Positions 21,615 to 50,304 of a DNA stretch of 64,000 nt are shown one piece after another. A model generated the notes under the pieces. That model saw only the letters and a list, made by a program, of their open reading frames with translations. It was not told the DNA's origin and made no database searches. How positions within the stretch are numbered: position 1 is the first letter of the stretch; every line of letters starts with the position of its first letter. Origin of the DNA: Chthoniobacterales bacterium (GTDB lineage: Bacteria; Verrucomicrobiota; Verrucomicrobiia; Chthoniobacterales; UBA10450); assembly GCA_035274845.1 (NCBI GenBank), contig DATENU010000015.1:310001-374000 (forward strand), given 5' to 3'. Position numbers and translations under genes: made by a program.

Positions 21615-21707
21615 AGGCGTCGAGTTTACCCGAGCGCGCAACGCTCAGGCTCTCGCTGCCTTCTCATCTAATCTGGTTAGGCGGCAAACTGTCCACGGAG
21701 TAAGTGC

Positions 21708-21917
21708 TCATGTGGAATGCGATCTGCCGAAAAGCATGACTGAGCCGAAGAGTATCAGCCAGCCGATTCCTATGAAACGAATCACGAGTCTTGAGGGCAT
21801 CTTCACTCGGCCACGATGAAACCACGAATAGAAGCGGACGACAGTGCCTGGCAAAAGAATCCACCACAACCCGAAACCGCCAAACAAGGCCACCGCGCCA
21901 AGATCAAAAGCGTTCAT
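21708..21917 (-). CDS. Small membrane protein
   Basis: 69 residues with two hydrophobic segments (~6-28 and ~47-64) separated by a basic, aromatic loop (RFYSWFHRGRVKMPSRLVIR). No family name is known; similar two-span small proteins are frequent as integron cassette products. Upstream it carries TCTAATTCTAGTTAGG, nearly the same as the sequence before the cassette-like gene at 48602, and 35 nt after its stop it has GCCTAACC. Confidence 0.6.
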   Translation of the reverse strand: MNAFDLGAVALFGGFGLWWILLPGTVVRFYSWFHRGRVKMPSRLVIRFIGIGWLILFGSVMLFGRSHST

Positions 21918-21963
21918 TCGAGAGACTTAAGGGCAACATGCCACCTAACTAGAATTAGACGAA

Positions 21964-21991
21964 TGTTCGCCTTAAAAGGCGAACAATTTTT
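21964..21991 (+). terminator. Terminator-like hairpin
   Basis: Stem TGTTCGCCTT / AAGGCGAACA (10 bp perfect, 2-nt loop) followed by ATTTTT on the plus strand. It is oriented away from any plus-strand gene, so it may instead be part of a recombination-site arm. Confidence 0.4.
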
Positions 21992-22027
21992 CGCCTATCA
22001 CTGGGGTGGGCGCACAAGACACGTTGC

Positions 22028-45653: not shown

Positions 45654-47774
45654 ATGAAACGCTCTTTGTCGATCTTCGCCGCCGCCTCACTCCTGACCAC
45701 GCTGCTTTTCGCGGCCGAAGAGAAGATCGCTTATCCGCAGCCGCCGAAGAGCGACCAATCCGACGATTATTTTGGCACCAAGGTGGCCGATCCTTACCGG
45801 GACCTGGAAAACCTGGACTCGGAGTCGACCAGGAAATGGATCGAGGCCGAGAACAAGCTCACTTTCGATTACCTCGCCGCCATCCCGGAACGGAAGAAAA
45901 TCAACGACAAAATGACGGCGCTCTGGAACTACGAAAAGTTCACCGTGCCGTATCACGAAGGCGGCCGCTATTTCTTTTCCAAGAACACCGGCCTGCAAAA
46001 CCAGAACGTCGTTTATACCAGCGACAAGCTGCCCGGCGAAGGAAAAGTCCTGATCGATCCCAATACCCTCTCGGCCGACGGCACCGTGGCGCTGAGCGGG
46101 ACCGACGTCACCGATGACGGCAAGCTGATGGCCTACGGAATCGCGGTGGCCGGCTCCGACTGGCAGGAATGGAAAGTCCGCGACATCGAGACGGGCAAAG
46201 ACCTGAGCGACGACGTCCAGTGGGTGAAGTTTTCGACGGCCTCGTGGAAAAAGGACGGGAGCGGATTCTTTTACAGTCGCTACGACACCCCGGCCTCCGC
46301 GGAGCAGCTCAAGCAGGCGAACTATTTTCACAAAGTTTATTTCCACAAGCTCGGGACGGGGCAATCCGAAGACCAGCTGGTTTACGAGCGAAAGGACCAC
46401 AAGGATTGGAACTTCAACGGCACGGTGACCGAAGACGGCCGGTTCCTCATCATCCACGTCTCGCAAGGGACCGATTCGAAGAACCGCATCTTTTACAAGG
46501 ACCTCCAGAAACCGGACGCGGCCGTGATCGAGCTCCTGAACAAACAGGACGCCGCTTACAGCTTTCTCGGTTGCGACGGCAACCACTTCTGGTTCAAGAC
46601 GGACCTGGCCGCGCCCAAAGGCCGGATCGTGGCGATCGACATCACCAAGCCGGACGAAATCGCGACGGTGGTGCCAGAAGCGGCCGACAAGCTCGAGGAC
46701 GTGGAGGTAGTCGGCGATCGTTTCATCGCCAGCTACCTCAAGGACGCGCATTCGACAGTCCGGCTTTTCGGTCTTGCCGGAAAGCCGGAAGGCGAGATCA
46801 AGCTCCCCGGGCTCGGCACCGCGAGCGGTTTCCATGGGAAGCGCAAAGACACCGAGACTTTTTATTCCTACGTCAGCTTCACTGAGCCCACGACGATTTA
46901 TCGTTACGACCTGAAGAGCGGCCAGAGCACGGCGCTTTTCCGGCCAAAGGTCGATTTCAAATCGGACGAGTTCACGACCGAGCAGGTTTTCTATTCGAGC
47001 AAGGACGGGACGAAGGTGCCGCTGTTCATCACCTACAGGAAAGGGCTCGAGAAAAACGGGAACAATCCCACGATGCTTTACGGCTACGGCGGGTTCGATG
47101 TTTCGATTACGCCTTCCTTTTCACCTGGCGTCGCGACCTGGCTGCAAATGGGTGGCGTTTATGCGGTGGCGATCCTGCGCGGCGGTGGGGAGTATGGCCA
47201 GGAATGGCATCTCGCCGGGACCAAGTTGCGCAAGCAAAACGTGTTCGACGACTTCATCGCGGCAGGCGAATGGCTGATCTCCAACAAGTACACTTCCACT
47301 TCGAAACTTGCGATCAGCGGACGGAGCAACGGCGGACTGCTTATCGGCGCGGTCCTGAATCAGCGGCCCGATCTTTGGGGCGCCGCCCTGCCGGGAGTCG
47401 GCGTAATGGACATGCTGCGCTTTCAGAAGTTCACGATCGGTTGGGCCTGGAAATCCGATTACGGATCGTCCGAGAACGCGGAAGAATTCGCGGCCATCTA
47501 CAAATATTCCCCGCTCCACAACATCAAGCCCGGCACGAAATATCCCCCCACCCTCGTCACCACGGCCGACCACGACGATCGCGTTTTCCCGGGGCACAGC
47601 TTCAAGTACGCGGCTGCTTTGCAAGCCGCCCAGGCCGGCCCCGCGCCGGTCTTGATTCGGATCGAAACCAGGGCTGGCCACGGCGCCGGAAAACCGACGA
47701 GCAAGATCATCGAGGAGACCACCGACCAATGGGCCTTCCTCGCGAAAAGCCTCGGCATGAAGCTGCCCTGGTAG
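45654..47774 (+). CDS. Prolyl oligopeptidase family serine peptidase (S9A)
   Basis: 706 residues from ATG 45654 with a signal peptide (MKRSLSIFAAASLLTTLLFAA). YPQPPKSDQSDDYFGTKVADPYRDLE is the typical N-terminus, then a seven-bladed propeller, and the alpha/beta hydrolase domain with the nucleophile S558 in GRSNGG, Asp in DHDDRVF and His in RAGHGAGK. It cuts short proline-containing peptides, here in the periplasm. Full length and intact. Confidence 0.95.
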   Translation: MKRSLSIFAAASLLTTLLFAAEEKIAYPQPPKSDQSDDYFGTKVADPYRDLENLDSESTRKWIEAENKLTFDYLAAIPERKKINDKMTALWNYEKFTVPYHEGGRYFFSKNTGLQNQNVVYTSDKLPGEGKVLIDPNTLSADGTVALSGTDVTDDGKLMAYGIAVAGSDWQEWKVRDIETGKDLSDDVQWVKFSTASWKKDGSGFFYSRYDTPASAEQLKQANYFHKVYFHKLGTGQSEDQLVYERKDHKDWNFNGTVTEDGRFLIIHVSQGTDSKNRIFYKDLQKPDAAVIELLNKQDAAYSFLGCDGNHFWFKTDLAAPKGRIVAIDITKPDEIATVVPEAADKLEDVEVVGDRFIASYLKDAHSTVRLFGLAGKPEGEIKLPGLGTASGFHGKRKDTETFYSYVSFTEPTTIYRYDLKSGQSTALFRPKVDFKSDEFTTEQVFYSSKDGTKVPLFITYRKGLEKNGNNPTMLYGYGGFDVSITPSFSPGVATWLQMGGVYAVAILRGGGEYGQEWHLAGTKLRKQNVFDDFIAAGEWLISNKYTSTSKLAISGRSNGGLLIGAVLNQRPDLWGAALPGVGVMDMLRFQKFTIGWAWKSDYGSSENAEEFAAIYKYSPLHNIKPGTKYPPTLVTTADHDDRVFPGHSFKYAAALQAAQAGPAPVLIRIETRAGHGAGKPTSKIIEETTDQWAFLAKSLGMKLPW

Positions 47775-47891
47775 GGACGCCGCGCTGCGGCGTCCGAGCG
47801 ACCTTATGGCGATCCCACAAACGCGGGACCGTCGCCACCCCTAGAGCAATTCTATCTTCTCAATCTTGACGGCTTTAAGCCGTCAAGATTC
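47772..47891. repeat. Palindromes downstream of the prolyl oligopeptidase
   Basis: A GTAGGGACGCCGCGCTGCGG palindrome (with CGTCC) starts at the POP stop codon, and a CTTGACGGC 27-mer lies at 47865-47891. The first is of the same type as 3141-3168, where GTAGGGACGGCGCGCTGCGC occurs. Confidence 0.7.
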
Positions 47892-47955
47892 AGCCCCCGA
47901 ACGTCGTTGCAAATTGGCTTTCCCGGAAAAACCCGCGCCGTTATCCTCCGCTCCC

Positions 47956-48495: not shown

Positions 48496-48601
48496 TGGGC
48501 AGACATTGCGTTCCGCCCGGTAGTAGAGGACAACGAATCGTGGTAGATGCAAGAAATCAACGCCTTCAAAGACGAATAACGTCTAATTCTCGTTAGGTCT
48601 G

Positions 48602-48979
48602 ATGAACTTCTATGATGTCACCGTCCAGCTGGTCGACTCATCAGTCGACGAGAGCGGGCCGGGAGGTGAGATCGCAGCAGACAAGCTCGTCGAAGCGTTC
48701 CACAAATTCCCCTTTGCCGAAGAGGTCGCAAGAGGACTTGCGATGGAGGATGGCGTCACCTTTCCGACAATTATATTTAAGAGACAGAGCGACGCCGAAG
48801 AAATCGCTATTTGGACCGAAAATGCGGACCGGTTTGACCTGTGCTTCGTTCATGGTGGGAAGAAGAGGTTCCTCAATAATCAGTCAAAGGACGAAGTTGA
48901 GACGATCTTGTGTCGTTTCGCGACGGAATCGGTCCTTGCCATTCAGCCACGCAGCTTTTGGTCGCGCCTGTTCCGATGA
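48602..48979 (+). CDS. Cassette-like hypothetical protein
   Basis: 125 residues, acidic, cytoplasmic, beginning MNFYDVTVQLVDSSVDESG. The central WTENADRFDLCFVHGGKKRFLNN is followed by a short helical end and RSFWSRLF. No family is recognised. GTTAGGT lies directly before the start, and a full attC-like site follows within one base of the stop, so the gene sits exactly as in an integron cassette. Confidence 0.6.
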   Translation: MNFYDVTVQLVDSSVDESGPGGEIAADKLVEAFHKFPFAEEVARGLAMEDGVTFPTIIFKRQSDAEEIAIWTENADRFDLCFVHGGKKRFLNNQSKDEVETILCRFATESVLAIQPRSFWSRLFR

Positions 48980-49110
48980 GGCCTAACCACGCGATGCGGC
49001 GAACCGCGAGCAAGCCTGCGACTGACATTTTGCGTGTTCGCCATCGACGCTTCCGCTTCGTGGCAGGTTGCAGTGGGCTCGCGGCCGCTGATCTTGAGTC
49101 TCGTTAGGCC
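48980..49110. other. attC-like recombination site 1
   Basis: 131 bp bounded by GGCCTAAC and GTTAGGCC, an 8-bp perfect inverted pair. Inside, GCGGCGAACCGCGAGC at the left pairs, with a short bulge, with GCTCGCGGCCGC at the right, and further complementary bases (CCTGC with GCAGG) follow. Size, R''/R' boxes and the imperfect palindrome are those of integron attC sites. No integrase gene is in the window. Confidence 0.7.
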
Positions 49111-49111
49111 C

Positions 49112-49648
49112 ATGCGCAATCTGTCGGCACTCAAATGGCCCATAATGATTTGCGTAGTGGCGGCAGGCGCTGGGGCGTGGCTCATCTTCTCACTGCTTCC
49201 CGGGACAGGTATTTCATTGGTCATTCCTGACGACAGCGCGTTCACCATTACCAAAACCGGCCGATACACTCTCTGGAGCCAGGTCGAGTCGTCGTTTCAA
49301 GGCAAGTTGATGACATTCCCTACGGGTTTGCCACCAGGCGTGACCATAGCGGTGACAAAGCCAGACGGCTCGATTGTCTCGCTGGAAAGTCAGTGGCCGA
49401 CCACGCACAAGGAGACGGGCGGCGGAGCTTTTCAGGTGGCGATCGGCACGATTACGTTCGATTCGCCGGGCTCTTATCACCTCACGACGCAGGGCCTCCA
49501 GGAGAAGCGAGCGCTATATCTCGACCAGTCTGATATGCGATATTTCTTCCTGAAGGTCCTTTTGGCGATGCTTATTCCAGCCGTAATCGTCGGCTGTCTA
49601 ATTTGGGGCATTCTGATATTCTTTCTCCGGCGTCACAAACCGGCCTAA
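49112..49648 (+). CDS. Cassette-like membrane protein of unknown function
   Basis: 178 residues from ATG 49112, two bases after attC-like site 1. Hydrophobic segments at ~10-30 and ~150-172 hold an extracytoplasmic beta-rich domain between them (FTITKTGRYTLWSQVESSF, PPGVTIAVTKPDGSIVSLES, ITFDSPGSYHLTTQG). The stop codon is inside the GGCCTAAC box of the second site. Unknown role; layout is typical for a gene cassette. Confidence 0.65.
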   Translation: MRNLSALKWPIMICVVAAGAGAWLIFSLLPGTGISLVIPDDSAFTITKTGRYTLWSQVESSFQGKLMTFPTGLPPGVTIAVTKPDGSIVSLESQWPTTHKETGGGAFQVAIGTITFDSPGSYHLTTQGLQEKRALYLDQSDMRYFFLKVLLAMLIPAVIVGCLIWGILIFFLRRHKPA

Positions 49649-49764
49649 CCATGCGACGGAGCGAACGGCGGACCGCTGTGCGGTCCATTTTTAAGATGGT
49701 TTCCACACAAACATTCCGAGCGACGAGCGCCCATGTCCGCCGTCCCTAATCTTTTTCTCGTTAA
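49642..49764. other. attC-like recombination site 2
   Basis: It starts GGCCTAACCATGCG and ends CTCGTTAAA. ACGGCGGAC on the left pairs with GTCCGCCGT on the right, and GGACCGC-TGT-GCGGTCC forms an inner hairpin. The right box is GTTAAAT instead of GTTAGGC. The ATG of the next gene overlaps the box. Confidence 0.65.
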
Positions 49765-50304
49765 ATGTTCCAGTCATTGCGCGCTGATGTTGACGGCGAA
49801 TCGTGGAAGTCATTCCTCACCGTCTTTTTTGGGACGTGGCTGGCCGTCTGGTTCTATGCGGCCGTGCACAATCAGTACCTGATTCGCATCGCGCCGGAGC
49901 ATTTCACGGTCTGGCATTACAGGATGCCGTTCACCCAGGATTACACGCTTCTCGGCATTCTCTATGCAGGCGGAGCGTCGGTTTCGCCGGGCGGAATTCT
50001 GGGCGCACTTCTTTATGTTGCGGGCAGACTGTTCGACCGCCCGCGAGTCCCGGTGCGTAAGCTAATCCTGAGCACGGCATGGGTGTGGCTCGCTGTCGAG
50101 GTCTGCGCCCTCGCCAGCGGATTGGTGGTCTGGCGCACCGGCCGGCCGCTCTATCCGGAGGATCTCTATCCGGCGAACTCGCTGGGCCTGTTGATCACGC
50201 AGACGATCCAGATTACTGCCTATTCCACAGGCGCATTGTTTTCCATCGGATTGCTTTTCTTGACCTGGCGCGCCCGCAAACATTTGAGCCGGGCAAGGCA
50301 ATGA
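49765..50304 (+). CDS. Multi-span membrane protein of unknown function
   Basis: 179 residues with about four hydrophobic spans (FLTVFFGTWLAVWFYAAV, LLGILYAGGASVSPGGILGALLYVAGRLF, LILSTAWVWLAVEVCALASG, GLLITQTIQITAYSTGALFSIGLLFL). A DYTLLGILY stretch and periplasmic aromatic loops suggest a small transporter-like or sensor membrane domain, but no family is recognised. It starts directly after attC-like site 2; no site follows its stop, so the cluster may end here. Confidence 0.65.
   Translation: MFQSLRADVDGESWKSFLTVFFGTWLAVWFYAAVHNQYLIRIAPEHFTVWHYRMPFTQDYTLLGILYAGGASVSPGGILGALLYVAGRLFDRPRVPVRKLILSTAWVWLAVEVCALASGLVVWRTGRPLYPEDLYPANSLGLLITQTIQITAYSTGALFSIGLLFLTWRARKHLSRARQ

Follow-up and report, generated by a model that had tools for sequence, protein, structure and literature searches.

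Organization of the locus

The window is a stretch of 64,000 nucleotides on the 379,043-base contig C15 of a draft genome of the Chthoniobacterales (G000; 24 contigs, 95.92% complete). It contains three small genes, ORF1 to ORF3, which follow an attI-like site and are separated by two attC sites (Table 1). The genes lie in one orientation with their starts beside right boxes, in agreement with the preliminary description of this DNA. The sites were analyzed with two models. R1, an attC covariance model, was built from 16 attC sites adjoining IntI in sister species (six stretches from IntI-adjacent contigs of five congeners) and contains no sequence of the window. R2, an attI model, is based on 13 IntI-adjacent attI sites, all from other genomes.

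Table 1. Coordinates of the cassette array, of the second head in the window, and of further heads in the same genome
Feature	Position	Strand	Details
attI-like head of the array	48535..48598	+	R2 35.5 bits, E 4.7e-8; expected cleavage G|TTAGGT at 48592
Left box GTTAGGT	48592-48598	+	End of the 48535 attI-like site
ORF1, cassette 1 gene, 125 aa	48602..48979	+	ATG 3 nt after left box; stop 1 nt before site 1 R''
attC site 1	48981..49109	+	R1 61.7 bits, E 4.6e-16 (filters off); 129 bp
Site 1 boxes	R'' 48981-48987; R' 49103-49109	+	R'' GCCTAAC; R' GTTAGGC; from sequence
ORF2, cassette 2 gene, 178 aa	49112..49648	+	ATG 2 nt after site 1 R'; stop inside site 2 R''
attC site 2	49643..49766	+	R1 84.4 bits, E 8.3e-23 (filters off); 124 bp; R' decayed to GTTAAAT
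Site 2 boxes	R'' 49643-49649; R' 49760-49766	+	R'' GCCTAAC; R' GTTAAAT; from sequence
ORF3, gene for 179-aa membrane protein after attC 2	49765..50304	+	ATG overlaps site 2 R'
Second attI-like head	21943..22006	-	R2 38.4 bits, E 6.6e-9; extended hairpin, z -6.58
69-aa ORF, first-cassette position behind second attI	21708..21917	-	Starts 32 nt past box start
Possible collapsed attC CCGCCTAACCAGATTAG, closing the 69-aa ORF cassette	21668..21684	-	From sequence inspection
Other heads in G000 (at least 11 with the two in the window)	C8:61002; C8:75762; C9:18386; C19 at 28.3 kb; C19:73941; C20:339124; C21:29282; C23:1227; C24 at 297.3 kb		

Searches of ORF1 to ORF3 against Pfam, NCBIfam, PADLOC, and PHROGs return nothing over the cut-off or below E 0.03, and none of the three has a match among the antiphage models. 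ORF1 and ORF2 have no match in any of 213 genomes of the order other than their own. AlphaFold2 models both with low confidence (pLDDT 54 and 55, respectively), ORF2 being predicted to consist of a helix, a beta region, and a long C-terminal helix. ORF3 has matches in 9 of the 213 genomes, its own included. Its homolog in genome G048 is 27% identical and lies between two attC matches (L121:1388-1488 and 2021-2121). A contig scan lists 12 ORF3-related loci in MAGs labeled Verrucomicrobia, Planctomycetota, Actinomycetota, Acidiferrales, and others; attC-like matches accompany two of the 12 when R1, which is tuned to the genus of the window, is used. The earlier statement that the encoded proteins have no recognized family thus stands as far as these four databases are concerned, but ORF3 and its relatives form a family with members in MAGs of Verrucomicrobiota, Planctomycetota, and others. 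Within the window, R1 finds no attC after ORF3; this gene is probably the last cassette of the array, its attC having been lost.

The flanking genes, named from a reading of their sequences, encode a prolyl oligopeptidase and a chromate transporter. The interval between them is ~4.5 kb in G000, ~2 kb with other content in G006, and only ~0.3 kb in G005; the cluster therefore sits in DNA that is absent from G005. In G001, G002, G004, and G007, the best matches of the flank genes are on different contigs, and in G003 the transporter flank alone is matched. In the orthologous intergenic region of G006 (L124, contig C25), the 3' end of the prolyl oligopeptidase gene is present as a duplicate, together with other small ORFs. 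An Ivy-like lysozyme-inhibitor gene (48495 being its last position and 47956 its first; PF08816, 20.4 bits, cut-off 21) lies just upstream of attI, and a DUF1801 gene (PF08818; 50421-50987) lies downstream of the cluster. By eye, a similar-looking ORF comes after the cassette cluster on contig C21. Dispersed palindromic repeats of the GGGACGCCGCGCTGCGGCGTCC and AATCTTGACGGCTTTAAGCCGTCAAGATT types, at 47768-47799 and 47859-47893, have many near-identical copies in the genome, and the GGGACGCCGCGCTGCGGCGTCC type is also found in G004, G005, and G007.

attC sites

The two attC-like sites of the preliminary description are real: both are detected by R1, and their boxes lie within one or two bases of the positions given there. 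Beyond them, the best R1 match in the 64-kb window with filters off reaches just 14 bits (E 0.073). Both sites fit the motif RYYYAAC ... GTTRRRY (for attC anatomy, see PMC11641012). Site 1 (GCCTAAC/GTTAGGC) has R boxes that are complementary at 7 of 7 positions and a bulge in the L stem; site 2 (GCCTAAC/GTTAAAT) has the motif but pairs poorly. An attC site is further expected to have L boxes with one or more extrahelical bases, a spacer that stays unpaired, and a terminal structure that varies. The R1 structure includes two bulged positions, and both sites align along the full model, with some pairs broken in site 2. At their left ends, the sites are direct repeats, 83% identical over 29 nt. 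From the end of site 1 to the start of site 2, the distance is ~535 bp by R1 match coordinates, so that the window holds the two close attC sites that IntegronFinder 2.0, according to its description, takes by default as the minimum for a CALIN, a cluster of attC sites lacking integrases (PMC9024848).

Compared with dinucleotide shuffles, the folding energies of site 1 (z -1.94/-1.34) and site 2 (z -0.35/-0.37) are not much better. Since they barely beat the shuffles, the case for attC rests on homology and covariation. In the alignment of 16 attC sites, 97.3% of the cells are paired, versus 85.1% in shuffles and at most 49% in slid controls, and 38 cells are changed on both sides versus 11.0 in shuffles. 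The boxes and inner palindromes noted earlier are thus upheld as R1 sites, with the qualification that the R' box of site 2 has decayed and that folding is hardly above that of shuffles. A simple box-and-stem scanner found site 1, missed site 2, and returned nothing in L114 to L122, and is therefore judged insensitive. The Rfam search returned tRNAs only.

Relatives of these sites are abundant. With site 2 as a DNA query, 27 matches are found in its own genome; about ten of them are clear relatives, roughly 75 to 83% identical over 70 to 123 bases, on contigs C9, C19, C20, C23, and C24. R1 has at least 37 matches in G000 at E<=1, of which at least 34 have E<=0.01. It also has matches in all eight genomes of the genus, the counts being lower bounds throughout: at least 34 in G000, 12 in G001, 123 in G002, 24 in G003, 15 in G004, 38 in G005, 40 in G006, and 25 in G007.

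attI-like heads in the window

By definition, attI lies between intI and the first cassette and ends in G|TTRRRY. In integrase-bearing platforms, the first attC is preceded by such a site, whose end reads TTCTC G|TTAGRY. The head of the array at 48535 is homologous to the 13 IntI-adjacent attI sites of other genomes, with no intI beside it. The preliminary description had pointed out a right-box-like GTTAGGT before ORF1; the box is present, but that reading was incomplete, as the box forms the end of an attI-like site. In local alignments, the left junction of the array scores up to 29 against 15 attI sites (the best being from G005) and up to 15 against 22 attC right halves, and a score of 29 is not attained by any of 500 shuffles in which the last 12 bases are kept. 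A truncated attC, of which the left box would be the remaining right half, was dropped as an explanation in view of these scores and of an R1 value of 8.1 bits at this place. Folded alone, the 48535 unit has a decayed hairpin (z -0.24).

The second head, on the minus strand, precedes an ORF of 69 aa that has no match in Pfam. R1 misses the possible collapsed attC behind this ORF. Apart from the two heads, the next place in the window has an R2 E value of 0.22, and these two are the only attI units at E<=1e-3 on the whole of contig C15. By their matches to R1 and R2, the two attC sites and the attI-like head of the array are members of families whose definition comes from intact integrons in sister species. 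The attC sites are predicted to be recombined by IntI in the form of a folded strand.

Integrase genes and their remnants

There is no functional intI beside attI in the window, as there would be in a complete integron, and tblastn of three IntI proteins gives nothing better than E 0.2 there. The integron integrase profile TIGR02249 has no match over the cut-off in G000 and eight matches below it, in five places. In three of these places, profile positions ~180 to 236 are spanned by only 20 to 25 residues; we take these positions to be the integron-specific insert, which those proteins would lack. Six-frame searches of G000 find no fragments of the intI body, whereas several congeners do show such fragments. 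Among 58 genomes searched, G000 included, 28 have TIGR02249 matches over the cut-off; these include five of the seven congeners (G001, G002, G003 with one stop in frame, G005, and G007). G004 and G006 have none.

Two remnants are nevertheless found in G000. A locus on contig C23 aligns with the IntI platform of G007 (contig C18) at 72% identity in the flank, 80% in attI and the 5' end of intI, and 83% in the first attC; the body of intI is missing, with ~28 codons readable. Judging from these identities, the locus is orthologous to the intact platform, and integrase loss can be traced through an orthologous platform with and without intI. The second remnant (26 codons, 77% identical, E 6e-9) is at the 28-kb head of contig C19. 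In this search, three out-of-frame queries (L030, L045, and L056, with 5, 5, and 9 stops, respectively) gave matches that were discarded as noise; only matches of in-frame queries in L207 were kept, and a weak in-frame match in L197 (E 0.024) was set aside. Near the heads of the window itself, no intI remnant was found, so that a local loss of intI is putative.

attI-like heads in the genome and genus

Exact matches to the motif WTCTCGTTAGRY number 38 in G000, versus 8 for the reversed pattern. The attI core YCNAMWYCTCGTTAGRY is found 8, 3, 10, 7, 4, 4, 15, and 16 times in G000 to G007, respectively, 67 times in total versus 2 for the reversed pattern; the pattern was built from already-seen sites, and some of the 67 are not attI (one, for example, is inside an attC of G007). 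At least 11 heads are present in G000, a minimum from R2 scans of the window, contig C15, and selected loci. Nine of the 11 pass E<=1e-3 with R2, and the heads at C19:73941 and C20:339124 reach just 15.4 and 14.9 bits (E 0.05 to 0.08). At all 11, an ORF of at least 60 aa starts 5 to 46 nt past the box. The heads at C19:73941, C20:339124, and C21:29282 (L154, L160, and L166) have ~220 bp of upstream sequence in common, 70 to 84% identical, with GTGCAC repeats near the box, unlike IntI-adjacent sites. Behind the attI head at L210 (contig C24, ~297.2 kb, minus strand), the first cassette has a gene for a TIR-domain protein (PF13676, E 3.9e-25), possibly one with a role in defense.

Across the genus, 26 head loci were compared, namely those returned by the searches and hence a nonrandom set (8 of G000 and 18 of congeners, with L176 and L188 being repeats). 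R1 finds a same-strand attC downstream at 23 of the 26, one attC being common to two heads 1 kb apart, and none at L171 (at a contig end), L175, and L187. Pieces of intI (tblastn E<=1e-3) are found at just five, L172, L182, L183, L193, and L195, with one piece common to L183 and L195. The heads are units of ~58 nt that mostly lead attC arrays, mostly have no integrase nearby, and have unrelated DNA upstream.

Heads of different species are alike mostly over the ~55 to 62 nt up to the box, many of them at 80 to 98%. Thus, L171 of G007 and L184 of G002 are 98% identical over 54 nt and unrelated upstream. In an alignment of 15 heads, the mean identity of the 11 long ones is 0.70 to 0.86 across the final 60 columns; it falls to 0.36 for the 15 columns before these and to less than 0.33 farther out, where the alignment is rich in gaps. 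A second core lies at this edge and reads GTTAGRC or GATAGRC in many copies. The head unit has the form of an inverted repeat: 92.0% of the cells pair in the 15 aligned units (85.8% in shuffles), 10 cells are changed on both sides (1.8 in shuffles), and the covariation is 0.230 versus 0.121 (0/500). Support is weaker for the 13 IntI-adjacent attI sites (63.6% paired; covariation 0.224 versus 0.135, 1/500). Folded alone, four of five units fold well (z -6.58, -4.30, -3.14, and -2.52).

Origin of the cluster

The preliminary description interpreted the cluster as a CALIN, and proposed a covariance search, a search for intI, and a search for further sites. The lineage-specific R1 hits both sites, at least 34 attC matches (E<=0.01) are found in the genome, TIGR02249 has no match over the cut-off there, and five of the seven congeners have intI. 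For these reasons, we consider the feature a genuine CALIN. The outcome said to speak against it, scores below threshold for both sites with nothing similar in the genome or in relatives, did not occur.

Very probably, the cluster is an integron cassette array with attI and two attC sites, now without its integrase, and its cassettes were captured at a dispersed attI by an integrase later lost. An ancestral IntI would have inserted circular cassettes in one orientation at the G|TTAGRY of the 48535 attI, and numerous attI sites dispersed over the genome would have been served by it in trans. Once IntI was lost, the arrays would have been frozen and left to decay, as may be seen in the R' box of site 2 and in the hairpin of the 48535 attI; the cassettes would become mobile again only with IntI supplied from elsewhere.

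It is plausible, if short of probable, that attI never moved and that all attI-headed arrays were once complete integrons, each of which lost its own intI by deletion in place. The truncated intI genes kept at two heads of G000 (C23 and C19 at 28 kb) and the intI pieces at the heads of G007:C4 and G003:C3 are what such deletions would leave behind, but only 5 of the 26 genus loci have a piece of intI, and heads that are 80 to 98% alike across species over ~55 to 60 nt, with unrelated DNA upstream, are hard to explain from full platforms. A more tentative proposal, which we regard with some doubt, is that attI is a portable, foldable unit of ~58 nt, with the second core upstream and G|TTAGRY downstream, much like a gene-less leading cassette. 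Arrays might then travel with their own attI and be served in trans by one or few integrases, as a distributed integron, of which the window could represent the state after the last integrase was lost. Such movement or spread of attI is what we infer from the comparison of heads; a sharp edge of identity would also arise from functional constraint on attI combined with decay of the rest.

An integrase that sits in an assembly gap, with the array still active, is improbable. It has to be considered because the genome is a draft of 24 contigs, 95.92% complete, in which contig C23 has attC matches within ~0.8 kb of one end and ~0.4 kb of the other, and arrays of similar sites break assemblies; against it stands the lack of any intI-body fragment in the six frames of G000, when several congeners show them. 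Far less credible is a classical CALIN formed by off-target insertion at attG-like secondary sites, with a chance resemblance of the left junction to attI. Off-target insertion is one of the CALIN origins given in the source cited here (PMC8618304), but the junction carries 64 nt of attI, well beyond the G before TTAGGT, and the attI core greatly exceeds its reversed control in the genus. Finally, dispersed REP- or MITE-like palindromes unrelated to integrons, which scattered copies of ~80% identity and the other dispersed palindromes of the genome might suggest, are rejected, since the same sites form arrays beside intact IntI in congeners and have covarying L boxes, a conserved extra base, a uniform orientation, and one small gene in each unit.

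Relation to known integrons

Integrons are usually drawn with one integrase, one attI, and one array, and the sedentary chromosomal integrons of Vibrio have VCR-like repeats in one large array. The window resembles the latter in the length of its sites (~120 to 130 bp), in their likeness within the lineage, and in the many unknown small genes, whereas here the arrays are short and dispersed on many contigs and the integrase is missing.

Integrons are known in Verrucomicrobiota, and origins of CALINs have been discussed (PMC8618304); a further source deals with distribution (PMC2426708). CALINs, as described with IntegronFinder 2.0 (PMC9024848), resemble the window in having two attC sites, small genes that all point the same way, and no intI nearby, but in the window the array has retained an attI head, one of many at dispersed places in an intI-less genome. 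In Xanthomonas, intI was lost in part of the genus and CALINs are found at loci away from intI (PMC12444791). Partial intI loss in the genus and CALINs away from the intI locus are seen here too; unlike in the window, no attI heads are described in the parts of that report considered here. The CALIN of Shewanella prophage M16-3 has its own attI at the start of the array, like that of the window, and the prophage also holds a complete integron (PMC9892861); that is one case in a prophage, against at least 11 heads here in a genome where searches found no intI. CALINs are reported to be usable in trans (PMC9668308), and reactions between attI and attI-like sites, as well as the GNT core, have been described (PMC10127599). 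In the literature on orphan or multiple attI sites that we covered, mostly outside subscription journals, there is no description of many dispersed heads per genome. CALINs as such, and in one instance a CALIN headed by attI, have already been published; the many dispersed orphan attI units look like a variant that is new.

A genus in which attI-headed arrays are numerous and integrases scarce or absent bears on the origin of CALINs, and a portable attI, if true, would be a mechanism that can be tested by a simple recombination assay. Models of attC and attI are now available for the little-studied Verrucomicrobiota.

In the usual integron layout, intI is divergent from the cassettes. At L039 (G005), L038 (G020), and L056 (G009), intI is codirectional with the cassettes and ends shortly before attI.
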